Origin: Phycisphaeraceae bacterium
GTDB lineage: Bacteria; Planctomycetota; Phycisphaerae; Phycisphaerales; SM1A02
Reading direction: 5' to 3'
Assembly (NCBI GenBank): GCA_015709595.1
Contig: CP054178.1
Span: forward strand, 62,001 to 126,000
Length of the DNA: 64,000 nt
This document shows positions 10,364-13,729 of this stretch, piece after piece. The translations under genes were made by a program, and so were the position numbers. The notes beneath the pieces are model-generated. The model saw only the letters and a program-made list of their open reading frames with translations. It was not told the DNA's origin and did no database searches. Each line of letters opens with the position of its first letter. Within the stretch, counting starts at the first letter, position 1.

Positions 10364-10600
10364 ATGCCCCTGAGTTGGAGCGAAATCCGCCAGAACGCCA
10401 TCGCCTTCTCGCGTGAGTGGGCCGGCGCAACCCGCGAGCGGGGCGACGCCCAGTCGTTCTGGAACGAGTTCTTCCGCTGCTTCGGCGTCAGCCGCCGCAT
10501 GGTCGCCTCCTTCGAGGCCCCCGTCGCCACCATCCGGGGCACCTACGAGTTCATCGACCTGCTCTGGCCCGGAACCCTGATCGCCGAGCACACGCCGCAC
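10364..10600 (+). pseudogene. N-terminal remnant of an MmeI-like restriction/methyltransferase enzyme
   Basis: Residues encoded from ATG 10364 begin LSWSEIRQNAIAFSREW and continue through NEFFRCFGVSRRMVASFE and FIDLLWPGTLIAEH. From memory this matches the N-terminal nuclease domain of MmeI-type (type IIL/IIG) enzymes, where the equivalent text ends DLFWPG..L.E.KSRG. The catalytic Asp and Glu of the PD-ExK site are present. The sequence then breaks to TPHES exactly where the catalytic Lys should be. The frame stays open into the HTH gene downstream, so a fusion product is possible. A TACACT box (10350-10355) lies 9 bases before the ATG. The matching C-terminal remnant is at 12551-12685. Confidence 0.65.
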
Positions 10601-10660
10601 GAGTCCACCCTTCCTGCCGTGATTCTTCGCTTCGCGTTCAGCCGTACAATGGCGGCGCTG

Positions 10661-10855
10661 ATGTTCCGTGAAGCGATCCTCGCCCAACTCGACCGCAGGA
10701 AGTGGACCCAGTACCGCCTTGTCCAGGAGAGCGGCGTGAGCAAAACCGCCGTGTATGACTTTCTCGCAGGAAAGCGCGACCTGTCAGGCGGCAACCTCGA
10801 ACAACTCTGCAAGACGCTCAACCTTGCTCTCACGCCTCGCCGAAAACACACTTGA
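10661..10855 (+). CDS. Small XRE-type helix-turn-helix protein, candidate R-M controller
   Basis: Starting at ATG 10661 the product is 64 residues. A helix-turn-helix (TQYRLVQESGVSKTAVYDFLAGK) occupies about residues 17-39, followed by DLSGGNLEQLCKTLNL, a Cro/C1-type fold. The frame is continuous with the MmeI-like remnant upstream, so a longer fused product from 10364 cannot be excluded. TACAAT lies at 10645-10650, 10 bases before this ATG, favouring an independent, nearly leaderless start. It directly precedes a DNA methyltransferase, and its stop codon lies inside the -35 region of that gene's promoter, the position expected of a controller (C) protein. The controller role is inference. 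Confidence 0.65.
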   Translation: MFREAILAQLDRRKWTQYRLVQESGVSKTAVYDFLAGKRDLSGGNLEQLCKTLNLALTPRRKHT

Positions 10856-10886
10856 CTAGTCCCGTATTCGGAACTATCCTCGGGCG
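10852..10886 (+). promoter_or_regulatory. Sigma-70-type promoter of the methyltransferase gene with overlapping GACT-AGTC palindrome
   Basis: TTGACT (10852-10857), a 17-bp spacer and TATCCT (10875-10880) lie 6 bases before the ATG at 10887, so transcription should begin at or next to the start codon (leaderless mRNA). The palindrome GACTAGTC (10854-10861) overlaps the -35 box. C-box operators of R-M controller proteins are also built from GACT/AGTC half sites, though usually with a few bases between them. Confidence 0.65.
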
Positions 10887-11891
10887 ATGCCCGGGCCAGC
10901 GACCAACAGAATGACCGCCCAGTTCACATTCGGCTTCCCCACTGTCGAGGTCGGCGCATCGCGTCTGATCCACGCGGATTGCTTCGAATGGCTGCGGCGG
11001 GTTCCGAAAGATTCGATTCATGCGATTGTCACCGATCCGCCCTACGGCGTGAAGGAGTATGACAGCGATCAGTTGGAGAAACGCGCCAACGGAAAAGGCG
11101 GGATCTGGCGAATCCCGCCTTCCTTTGATGGCAGCAACCGCCAGCCCCTTCCACGTTTCACGGCGCTCGATCCCGCGGAGCGAGCACGCCTGCGCGCGTT
11201 CTTCGTCGAATGGGCCGCATTGGCGGCCACCGCGCTGCGGCCAGGCGGGCACGTGTTCATCGCGACCAACGCCTTTGTCTCACAACTCGTGTTCGGGGCT
11301 CTCGTCGAGAGCGGGTTGGAGTTCCGAGGTGAAATCATCCGACTGGTGCGCACGCTGCGCGGCGGCGACCGCCCCAAGAACGCGGAAACCGAGTTCAGCG
11401 GCGTGTGTTCGATGGCCAAGGGGTGCTACGAACCATGGGGCATCCTCCGCAAGCCGCTGCGCCCCGGAATGCGCGTGAGCGATTGCCTGCGAGAGTTTCA
11501 GACCGGCGGCCTGCGCCGATACCTCAACGACAAGCCATTCGAGGACGTGATCCTGAGTGAGCGCACCCCTCGATTGGAGCGCGACATCGCGGATCACCCC
11601 AGTCTCAAGCCCCAGTCGCTCATGCGGCGATTGGTGTATGCCGCGCTTCCGCTGGGCCAAGGCGTGGTGGTCGATCCATTCATGGGCGGGGGCTCGACAA
11701 TCGCCGCCGCCAATGCTGTTGGCGTCAGCGCGGTCGGCATCGAACGGGATCAAGCGTTCTTCGAGTTGGCACGACACGCGGTCCCGCGTCTGGCGCGGCT
11801 GCACGTCCCCACGTCAGATCGGCTCGTCGGCGCCCATTCGGAGGAACTGCTCTTTCAATCCGCGCCCGCTGCAGCGTCGATCGCGCGATAA
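10887..11891 (+). CDS. Site-specific DNA methyltransferase, beta class (N6-adenine or N4-cytosine)
   Basis: The 334-residue protein has the catalytic motif IV DPPYGVKEY near residue 50 and the SAM-binding motif I DPFMGGGST near residue 265. The order IV then I defines the beta class of amino-methyltransferases. The motif VFIATN (X/VI region) and HPSLKPQSLMRRLV, typical of DNA methylases, are also present. The central part (about 90-230) is the likely target-recognition region. It forms a convergent pair with a PD-(D/E)xK nuclease whose stop codon lies inside this gene (37-bp overlap). The recognition sequence cannot be read from the protein. The start follows from the promoter at 10852-10880. 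Confidence 0.9.
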   Translation: MPGPATNRMTAQFTFGFPTVEVGASRLIHADCFEWLRRVPKDSIHAIVTDPPYGVKEYDSDQLEKRANGKGGIWRIPPSFDGSNRQPLPRFTALDPAERARLRAFFVEWAALAATALRPGGHVFIATNAFVSQLVFGALVESGLEFRGEIIRLVRTLRGGDRPKNAETEFSGVCSMAKGCYEPWGILRKPLRPGMRVSDCLREFQTGGLRRYLNDKPFEDVILSERTPRLERDIADHPSLKPQSLMRRLVYAALPLGQGVVVDPFMGGGSTIAAANAVGVSAVGIERDQAFFELARHAVPRLARLHVPTSDRLVGAHSEELLFQSAPAAASIAR

Positions 11892-12514
11892 ATCCAGTTC
11901 GCCTCCATCTTGGCGAAACCCGATGGCTTCACGCTCGCCGTGATGGTGCGTCGGCTTGTTTCGGACCGGCCCGAGAACTGCCAGTCGCTCGCGCTCAACC
12001 TGGCTCCGACCACCTTGAGAAACCGAAACGGCCTGGGAGCGATGCCGCGATGAGCATCGGTGATCCGGTTGGCGTCGAACACAAACACCATCAGCCAGAC
12101 ATCCTCGGCATTGTGCCCCTGCCAACCCCTGATGTAGCGCGATCCCTTGATCTCGATCCCCTCCGGCGCATGAAGTTGGGCGTCGCCGGAGTACTTGCCC
12201 GCCGGGAGCAGGTCGGGATGTCCGTTGTGGTAGCGGTTCTTCACCAGCATCGGGCAGTGCCTGGGGATCGTGGTGGTCATGAACTCGCCGACGATGCTGC
12301 TGAAATTCGCTGGCATCAGGAACGATTCGAGGCGTGGAAGGCCCTTGGTGTTCAACTGCCTGTTGATGAACTCAAGAAAGTCGAGAAAGTCGTTCATCGC
12401 GGCGCACACGTGCGCCACGGTGCAGCCGCAGGGGATGACCGCTCTGGGGTTGAACTGGCCAATCTTCAACCGCGCAAGGCGACACGCAGCGAGTTCGGGA
12501 TCGGCCTTGGCCAT
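11855..12514 (-). CDS. Putative PD-(D/E)xK restriction endonuclease
   Basis: The 219-residue product is not one I can place in a named restriction family. It has a nuclease core: HNGHPDLLP around residue 100, then EGIEIKGSRY about 20 residues later, giving D...E-x-K of the PD-(D/E)xK fold. A helical N-terminal region (AAMNDFLDFLEFINRQLN) precedes it. AEDVWLMVFVFDAN after the core is a buried strand commonly seen behind the catalytic motif. Its position, convergent with and overlapping a beta-class methyltransferase, supports a restriction role. ATG 12514 was chosen. The frame stays open far upstream into low-complexity repeat DNA, which is not credible coding sequence; a slightly earlier TTG/GTG start is possible. 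Confidence 0.75.
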   Translation of the reverse strand: MAKADPELAACRLARLKIGQFNPRAVIPCGCTVAHVCAAMNDFLDFLEFINRQLNTKGLPRLESFLMPANFSSIVGEFMTTTIPRHCPMLVKNRYHNGHPDLLPAGKYSGDAQLHAPEGIEIKGSRYIRGWQGHNAEDVWLMVFVFDANRITDAHRGIAPRPFRFLKVVGARLSASDWQFSGRSETSRRTITASVKPSGFAKMEANWIYRAIDAAAGAD

Positions 12515-12550
12515 CGGCGGACGGTAGGGCCAGAGCCGGGCTCCTTCAAG

Positions 12551-12685
12551 CCGGTGTCGCGTCGCGAGCAGATGTGGTCCCTCTCCCGACGCTTCGAGTA
12601 CCTCTTCGAGCAATACGAGCGGCTGACCGCGCCCCTGACGGCCCAGCCGCGAACCCGGCGCACCCGGCGTCCCGCCGGTGGTTGA
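12551..12685 (+). pseudogene. C-terminal remnant of an MmeI-like methyltransferase
   Basis: The plus-strand frame reads SRREQMWSLSRRFEYLFEQYERLTAPL followed by a basic tail and a stop at 12683-12685. A closing helix of the pattern FLFExYxxLTAPL is how MmeI-like / class I DNA methyltransferases often end (recalled, not searched). It lies on the far side of the R-M cassette from the N-terminal remnant at 10364-10600 and on the same strand. Together they suggest one gene replaced in the middle by the cassette. It is short, so confidence is moderate. Confidence 0.5.
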
Positions 12686-12808
12686 ACCCGCGCAGCCAGC
12701 CAGCCCCCGCCCGCCCCCGCACAACCCGCACCATCCGGCGGCGGCGCAGTCCGTGCGCCCGAACAACCCGCACAATCCCCACGGGCCGCGCATCCGCCCA
12801 CCGCTGAT

Positions 12809-13106
12809 CTTGCAAAGTCCCGCTCTCCCATTGCAAAGTCCCGCGTTCCCTTTGCAAAGTCCCGCTCTCCCATTGCAAAGTCCCCGCGCGCCACGACAAA
12901 GTCCCCGCGCGCCACGTTCAAGTCCCTCCTTCCCTTTGCAAAGTCCCGCTCTCCCTCGTTCAAGGGAACGGTTCCCCCGTTCAAGGGAACGGCTCCCTCG
13001 TTCAAGGGAACGGCTCCCTTTGCAAAGTCCTTCCTTCCCCCGTTCAAGGGAAGCGTTCCCTTGTTCAAGGCGCGTTCCCTTTACAAGGCGCGCGGGGACT
13101 TTGCAA
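12809..13106. repeat. Low-complexity block built from TTGCAAAGTCCC and GTTCAAGGGAA units
   Basis: About 300 bp made of two interleaved motifs: TTGCAAAGTCCC (at least five copies, mostly 12809-12890 and near 12938) and CGTTCAAGGGAA (four or more copies, 12955-13060), separated by CGCTCTCCC/CGCGCGCCAC spacers. Open frames across it encode only repetitive Pro/Ser/Arg peptides, so it is treated as noncoding. Confidence 0.8.
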
Positions 13107-13179
13107 GATGGCGGCCCCCCCCACGCCACGGCGCGGCCCCCCCACGGCGCAGCGCGGCCCCCCCACCTGGCGGCGCGGG

Positions 13180-13545
13180 CCGACCGCTCCCTCACGGTCG
13201 CGGCTCGCTCACGGATGGTCGCGGCTCGCTCAGGGAGCGCCCCCTCTCACGCCACGGCGCGGGCCGACCGCTCCCTCACGGTCGCGGCTCGCTCACGGAT
13301 GGTCGCGGCTCGCTCACGGATGGTCGCGGCTCGCTCACGGATGGTCGCGGCTCGCTCACGGATGGTCGCGGCTCGCTCAGGGAGCGCCCCCTCCACGCCA
13401 CGGCGCGGGCCCCCCACCTGGCGGCGCGGGCCGACCGCTCCCTCACGGTCGCGGCTCGCTCACGGATGGTCGCGGCTCGCTCACGGATGGTCGCGGCTCG
13501 CTCACGGGTGGTCGCGGCTCGCTCAGGGAGCGCCCCCTCTCACGC
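13180..13545. repeat. 21-bp tandem repeat array nested in a larger duplicated block
   Basis: The 21-bp unit CTCACGGATGGTCGCGGCTC+G is repeated in three clusters of about one, four and two to three perfect copies plus variants (13190-13240, 13275-13385, 13440-13535). Each cluster is opened by CCGCTCCCTCACGGTCGCGG and closed by CTCAGGGAGCGCCCCCT. A spacer with CACGCCACGGCGCGGGCC recurs between clusters, so the whole block is itself duplicated. The opening core also occurs in the mnmA gene. Confidence 0.9.
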
Positions 13546-13729
13546 CACGGCGCGTCCGGAAACCGGGGGGAGTCCACGGATGAACACCGATGAACGGAGA
13601 TTCAGAGCATGATCTCTGAGTTCTGACCATCCGTGCTCATCCGTGTTCATCGGTGGATCGAGTGCCTGTTCTCCGGCGCTCCGGTTCTGCGGCTCGCCTT
13701 CCGTCGGCGGCTCCGCCCGCCCGTCTTCC

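Follow-up and report, generated by a model that had tools for sequence, protein, structure and literature searches.

How does a complete restriction-modification (R-M) system come to stand between the two ends of another R-M gene? The question is raised by a locus in the 64,000-nucleotide stretch of Phycisphaeraceae bacterium DNA analysed here (the window; contig CP054178.1, positions 62,001 to 126,000), where the remnants of an MmeI-like enzyme flank a small type II R-M cassette. Very probably, the cassette replaced the interior of the MmeI-like gene by recombination, as one case of a recurrent class in which defence genes fill such genes. In window positions, the locus comprises:

10364..10591, plus strand: 5′ stub of an MmeI-like type IIL R-M gene, codons 1–76 of about 925 (from PF20464, the intact enzyme L025 and a profile)

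10592..10663, plus strand: 72-bp spacer between the stub and the helix-turn-helix (HTH) gene, a candidate cassette promoter (from alignment with the related locus L090)

10664..10855, plus strand: HTH protein of 63 residues, a putative controller (HTH_3, 5.8e-7; L090 alignment)

10854..10879, plus strand: operator-like inverted repeat before the methyltransferase gene, GACTAGTC-N10-AACTATCC, a putative operator

10887..11891, plus strand: DNA methyltransferase (PF01555, N6_N4_Mtase, 1.2e-15; PADLOC MTase_II PDLC03215, 8.3e-97)

11855..12514, minus strand: PD-(D/E)xK restriction endonuclease of 219 residues (from alignments, an AlphaFold model and Foldseek)

12569..12685, plus strand: 3′ stub of an MmeI-like gene with its stop codon, residues about 888–922 (from a profile and shuffles)

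The open reading frame (ORF) that starts at ATG 10364 matched MmeI_N (PF20464) with an E value of 5.8e-14 over profile positions 2–70 of 181, and the PADLOC REase_MTase_IIG model with 5.3e-15. Its first 76 codons are 67% identical to the start of L025, an intact enzyme encoded by a different genome from the same order; in L025 the five MmeI domains are all present and follow one another as N, hel, Mtase, TRD (target-recognition domain) and C. A 20-row N profile matched positions 10364–10600 at E 2.8e-34. Homology ends at LIAEH, after which the window continues T-P-H and intact relatives K-S-R-G (LIAEHKSRG). The Asp and Glu of the PD-ExK site are kept, and the motif Lys, which we take to be the catalytic Lys of PD-ExK enzymes, is replaced by Thr (LIAEHT). 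The initial annotation had placed an MmeI-like piece at 10364–10600 that stops at this motif with the Lys gone; both points are borne out, but the extent needs adjusting, with MmeI homology reaching 10591 and the frame running on to 10855, fused to the HTH. No second MmeI_N match was found at E 0.001 in the bacterium's own genome (3.84 Mb), which is assembled in a single contig and is 99% complete.

The stub holds neither stop codon nor frameshift, and the joint ORF, 10364–10855, would encode 163 residues with the MmeI stub in frame with the HTH. Such a fusion could be a functional regulator for which the arrangement was kept. One in three junctions is in frame by chance, however, and in L090, a locus of an uncultured planctomycete, the HTH gene has its own start and a promoter-like box at the same place, with no MmeI piece. 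We consider a functional fusion very improbable.

At the other end, a profile built from the terminal ~80 residues of 20 rows, all intact or almost so and representing 19 distinct proteins, matched positions 12569–12670 with 27.2 bits (E 3.4e-6), against a best background score of 10.6 bits in 988,501 bases, about 1 Mb (loci L072–L169 over 4 kb). Aligned to L025 residues 885–922, the C stub scored 84, and the best of 1000 shuffles 51. Together these scores rule out a chance match of the C tail. The tail is recognisable from about 12569 and strong from 12587; the C-terminal end that had been read at 12551–12685 is indeed of the same enzyme but starts at about 12569, not 12551. Both stubs lie on the same strand in colinear order, and the intact L177 is the top match for both among 20 rows, narrowly for the N end (284 versus 281), which rules out ends from different families. 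A profile of the MmeI middle found no match in the window, where the hel, Mtase and TRD domains are absent. About 111 of roughly 925 residues remain and about 808 codons are lost. Checked against one family, as the initial annotation had suggested, the ends give colinear matches to the same enzyme with the central part missing, and these matches point to common descent of both stubs with intact MmeI-like members. The C stub is short and found no match in a Pfam search on its own, which might suggest a chance match or an assembly chimera; its score against the background and the single-contig, nearly complete genome make either barely credible.

The genes between the stubs agree with what had been read there: an HTH protein, a methyltransferase and a convergent PD-(D/E)xK nuclease. 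The HTH protein is 83% identical to its L090 counterpart and is the probable controller of the cassette; its match to the PADLOC Control_protein model is weak (E 0.018). Beside its start the window reads TACAAT and, in the alignment, L090 reads TATAAT at the same place; a cassette promoter probably lies inside 10592–10663. The inverted repeat before the methyltransferase gene is perfect in L090 (GACTAGTC-N10-GACTAGTC) and imperfect in the window. The methyltransferase has both its S-adenosylmethionine-binding motif and its catalytic DPPY, with DPPYG early and DPFMGGGST late, an order that we take to be that of the beta class. By eye, a possible alternative start at 10911 is shared with L090. 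The genome itself (3.84 Mb) holds 18 N6_N4 (PF01555) methyltransferase matches, 16 of them over the cut-off, some being halves of one gene.

The endonuclease gene converges on the methyltransferase gene with an overlap of 37 bp. Its site, P100 D101 ... E121 x K123, is invariant in 24 of 24 aligned sequences. In a Foldseek search with the AlphaFold model (predicted local distance difference test score 89.6), the first 17 rows were all EcoRV, SfiI and NlaIV, though the best E value was only 5.4e-3 with a template modelling (TM) score of 0.33; a second structure comparison placed NaeI first (Z 9.3), with the other enzymes listed at 7.0 or below and Hjc resolvases among the lower rows. As modelled, the protein appears nearest to restriction enzymes. 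The three genes form one complete, intact cassette, which is probably active.

The same three genes occur in L090, with 77% DNA identity over window positions 10659–12530, and tblastn found no MmeI pieces there. The setting of the L090 cassette is prophage-like: a phage tape-measure gene (PHROG, 8e-45) lies 0.4 kb away and a ThsB TIR gene (1.2e-24) 1.5 kb away. A scan of GTDB genomes for the methyltransferase–endonuclease (M–R) pair gave 413 confirmed relatives, of which 80 were kept. M and R are convergent in all 77 kept loci with an M match (two of the three without one, L099 and L160, lie at contig ends), in 7 of 7 viral contigs, and in five annotated plasmid stretches, from Acidiphilium, Citrobacter, Rhizobium, Gordonia and Iamia. 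R and M are conserved as a pair. Loci L084–L089 were compared with the cassette proteins only, and L240–L242 were left out. Neither the 80 kept loci (tblastn with L025 or L026, E 0.01) nor the 7 viral contigs gave an MmeI match beside the cassette, and a search for the N stub in the viral contigs found none; a cassette nested in MmeI elsewhere is ruled out for these loci and contigs. Among the 77 loci, only L090 has the window-type HTH on the M side. The controller gene of the pair seems exchangeable, because a different C-like HTH sits before R in the Acidiphilium stretch and in 5 of the 77 loci (the loci concerned being L020, L118, L131, L147, L154 and L168).

Base composition sets the cassette apart from its surroundings. 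The G+C content at third codon positions (GC3) is 0.934 in the N stub, close to 0.926 in ftsY and 0.935 in lptD, and 0.70–0.81 in the cassette genes, which suggests that the MmeI gene had resided there longer and that the cassette is newer; to this the short C stub adds nothing. That the middle of one R-M gene was replaced by another R-M system, as originally proposed, is thus upheld by colinear ends of one family, an absent middle, and a cassette that is a unit elsewhere. Between the C stub and lptD, at 12800–13600, the window also carries dense short repeats, with units like CTCACGGATGGTCGCGGCTCG and TTCAAGGGAACGGCTCCC and self-matches of about 88%.

Is the arrangement peculiar to this genome? 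Searches with the intact enzyme covered 397 genomes of the class, 400 of the order, 392 of the phylum and 163 of the family, in overlapping samples; the counts of filled loci leave out plasmid records (419 in the L025 search, 32 with an N piece). Three further loci have both MmeI ends around other cargo:

G982: codons 1–207, cargo, C end from about residue 816; the cargo is a BsuBI/PstI methyltransferase-endonuclease fusion of 850 residues (PF06616, 9e-64; PDLC03359, 1.5e-248)

G966: codons 1 to about 100, cargo, C end from about 816; the cargo is an AAA_13 ATPase (PDC-S06, 6.3e-254)

G946: codons 1–149 or slightly more, cargo, C end from about 874; the cargo is an XamI R-M pair, with an XamI endonuclease (2.3e-100) and a type II methyltransferase (5e-157)

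The fit is close in all four loci. From N stub to cargo start there are 72, 108, 34 and 88 bp in the window, G982, G966 and G946, respectively, and from cargo end to C stub 54, 43, 41 and 30 bp; the 88-bp gap may be shorter, since tblastn extends the G946 N stub to residue 172 via two stops. Within each locus, the top three intact matches of the N end overlap with those of the C end. In G982 and G966 the GC content of the cargo is below that of both stubs; in G946 it is lower too, but slightly. By the look of the ORF lists, the neighbours of the other three loci differ from the ftsY and lptD of the window. The stubs are mutually 54–68% (N) and 41–64% (C, the G982 twin described below left out) identical. 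The four loci look like separate events, because their stubs diverge about as far as intact proteins do from L025 (49–68% identity, one at 34%). The right joints of G982 and G966 fall at the same VYNNFPW codons, with 24 identical bases, hinting at a preferred breakpoint there; a shared ancestral filling of these two loci is disfavoured, their C stubs being only 51% identical. Beyond the C end of G982 lie a SoFic gene (4.6e-114) and then a second C tail, and the twin tails around SoFic (L245:160-1925) are direct copies, identical at 151 of 162 bases.

At the N end, stub and adjoining gene point the same way in 6 of 6 loci (5 of 5 when the window is left out, a chance of 1 in 32); at the C end this holds for 6 of 7 loci, the exception being the window endonuclease. 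The same tables contain 39 intact copies among the matches listed, counted by eye (20 + 12 + 7) across overlapping genome samples, with intact meaning at least 45% identity over about 790 or more of 926 residues, in one row or in two adjoining rows without loss; G898 and G471:C100, whose inner parts are missing, are left out of this count.

Six further loci are one-sided, with a defence gene at a single MmeI-like end:

G771: codons 1–120, then an N6 methyltransferase gene to the contig end; the C end is on another contig

G045: a C stub with an HNH nuclease gene some 20–25 bp ahead of it; an N stub was not found

G763: a DUF2326 gene (PF10088, 1.4e-23; PDC-M68B, 7.6e-25) before a C-side piece that covers residues about 781–851 only

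G946:C189, of a related IIG clade: an N stub of 42 codons, about 60 bp, then a Schlafen-type helicase gene (PDC-S41, 1e-214)

G1029:C310, of a related IIG clade: another IIG gene (4e-65) directly before the C stub

G182:C1 (L217:6131-8536), in a single-contig genome: a second MmeI copy without its first 321 residues, with an AbiEi-like gene and an AbiEii domain in their place

In G182 the AbiEii domain (3.9e-31) is fused in frame to MmeI residues 322–912, comprising the methyltransferase, TRD and C domains; the match of the AbiEi-like gene, 0.00047, is below the cut-off. The two IIG-clade loci came from a control query with L031, a more distant IIG-type enzyme, in 130 genomes, so this query is no clean control; it also gave an N stub at a contig end in G1037, which is uninformative. 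G471:C147 was not counted: its neighbours are only weakly defence-like (matches to AbiLi, 1.7e-16, and HEC-01B, 7e-4) and lie 1.6 kb from the C tail, separated from it by a PIN gene.

Several observations weigh against replacement in the window or against its recurrence. In the window, the C stub aligns over a short length of 34 residues, its GC3 of 0.814 is closer to that of the endonuclease (0.805) than to that of the N stub (0.934), and the adjoining endonuclease gene runs opposite to the stub's direction. No direct repeat of at least 8 bp links 10560–10664 with 12510–12620, which speaks against insertion with target duplication and against repeats of the cassette's own at the joints; one 10-bp inverted match, at 10561 and near 12527, may be chance. 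The genome gave no match to Ku, leaving classical end joining unsupported. An intact, unnested MmeI-like gene, which the initial annotation had suggested seeking between ftsY and lptD, did not turn up: the two genes are adjacent in 9 of 12 fetched family relatives, the fetched stretch of the other three has no ftsY match, and an MmeI match is absent from all 12 stretches. For this reason the MmeI-like gene probably reached the spot in the window's own lineage, and its intact ancestor in place is something that we infer, while homology and composition support the nesting.

As to recurrence, the other three two-sided loci are on draft-genome contigs, and some broken ends have no defence gene in sight: G502, about 1 kb from an IS66 transposase gene; G042, beside an amidohydrolase gene; and G1024, by its ORF list (for the neighbours of these three, the family search covered two ORFs). 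Since defence genes cluster in genomes, those found here could be mere neighbours of broken MmeI ends with no special relation to them. The unaccompanied ends fit this idea, as does the window genome's richness in methyltransferases, with its 16 PF01555 matches over the cut-off. Simple crowding would hardly lead one to expect, however, that the two ends of a single gene would in four loci frame the defence gene or genes exactly, with 30–108 bp to spare, nor so high a rate as four filled loci to 39 intact copies among the matches listed. As a control, lptD gave a match in each of 61 genomes, and inspection by eye showed no filling of kilobase size, but lptD is essential and the control therefore weak. 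On balance, crowding as the explanation is somewhat unlikely.

Deletions without cargo also occur. In G050 (L216:8382-8774), codons 1–84 are joined to about 870–924 near a repeated LxxAHT motif; in G716 (L201), about 12 codons are joined to about 858–922; and match tables indicate further plain deletions in G305:C443, G898:C129 and, partially, G471:C100. Such stubs suggest a two-step course, in which the MmeI gene first shrank by internal deletion to an N–C stub and the cassette landed later, and the G050 joint indeed lies near the window breakpoints (76 and about 888). Against this, a later landing would have had to hit a stub of about 400 bp, a small target, and the left breakpoints of the four filled loci differ (76, 207, about 100, and 149 or slightly more). 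Two separate steps seem distinctly unlikely. In G305:C443:4865-6142, MmeI residues 1–126 stand directly before 627–920 in one 457-residue frame, possibly a nuclease–TRD fusion without methyltransferase.

Replacement of the MmeI interior by the cassette, which we favour, could have proceeded as follows. A resident single-chain MmeI-like (type IIL) gene would have lost about 808 codons, keeping 76 at its 5′ end and about 35 at its 3′ end, and a mobile HTH–methyltransferase–endonuclease cassette would have taken the place of the lost interior. Because the MmeI middle is gone, this would be replacement and not simple insertion. The most likely route would be illegitimate recombination, with the cassette kept for its function. 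The MmeI-like enzyme must, on sequence grounds, be dead, because the methyltransferase and target-recognition domains and the motif Lys are all missing from it. In two-gene R-M systems, loss of the methyltransferase alone is lethal; here, the replaced enzyme would have lost its cutting and methylating halves together, the chromosome would not have been exposed, and the cassette could survive. The new gene nearest the 5′ stub may then capture the old gene's transcription, as is suggested by the direction of the gene beside the N stub in every case seen. The window cassette has promoter-like boxes of its own as well.

A wider reading, which we offer tentatively and at somewhat less than even chances, is that single-chain type II R-M genes (IIL and related IIG) are recurrent exchange sites whose interiors are swapped for unrelated, complete defence modules that follow the old gene's direction and inherit its promoter and position. 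Under it, two-gene R-M systems, M–R fusions, AAA_13 ATPases, helicases, HNH nucleases and AbiE would settle about 30–110 bp from the ends, and the intact enzyme would itself be one of many alternative fillings between its own ends. The four two-sided and six one-sided loci are its basis.

The question bears on how small defence systems that bring no transposase of their own become established in chromosomes. Fossil ends of a long, known gene give near-exact breakpoints and the ancestral frame, and replacement therefore becomes countable and testable across many genomes. Should single-chain R-M genes prove to be favoured slots, a simple reason could be that their loss removes cutting and methylation at once and is harmless, and that their promoter is preset for a defence enzyme; one kind of defence gene may act as a landing place for others. 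In practice, searching genomes for MmeI or IIG ends that hold a foreign filling could lead to new defence genes.

Compared with MmeI itself (type IIL; Pfam MmeI_N, hel, Mtase, TRD and C), both window stubs match and the catalytic domains are absent or incomplete. Among controller-type type II R-M systems, of which Esp1396I and PvuII are examples, the cassette finds its likeness: a small HTH protein, methyltransferase and endonuclease in compact order, M and R convergent, and an operator-like repeat before M. In the window and L090 the HTH gene precedes M, whereas in the six relatives named above another C-like HTH precedes R.

R-M systems have been argued to be mobile, and insertion with long target duplication is described by Kobayashi and co-workers (PMC3031569). 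As there, an R-M unit moves as a block; unlike there, the window has no duplication and about 808 codons are lost. The twin C tails around SoFic in G982 do resemble a target duplication. Nobusato et al. in 2000 reportedly described R-M insertion of this kind. In Helicobacter pylori F16, a prophage remnant lies inside an R-M system (PMC3120642); the R-M locus is a landing site there too, for a phage and not a defence system. Replacement of R-M by Ssp systems, as described in PMC12421847, took place between genomes and not within a gene. In the open-access literature searched, we found no description of defence genes enclosed by MmeI ends, and no earlier description of one enzyme type that is repeatedly filled, at close fit, with unrelated defence modules. 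The nearest case is Campylobacter cuniculorum, in which a PabI-family R-M system took the place of the R gene in a putative type II system (PMC4615327): there, as in the window, one R-M system stands where part of another stood and the old neighbours are broken. That case concerns a separate R gene, whereas the window concerns the interior of a single-chain gene with both ends kept, an arrangement that recurs with unrelated cargo. Taken alone, the window would be a clear new example of the known kind in which one R-M system replaces another.

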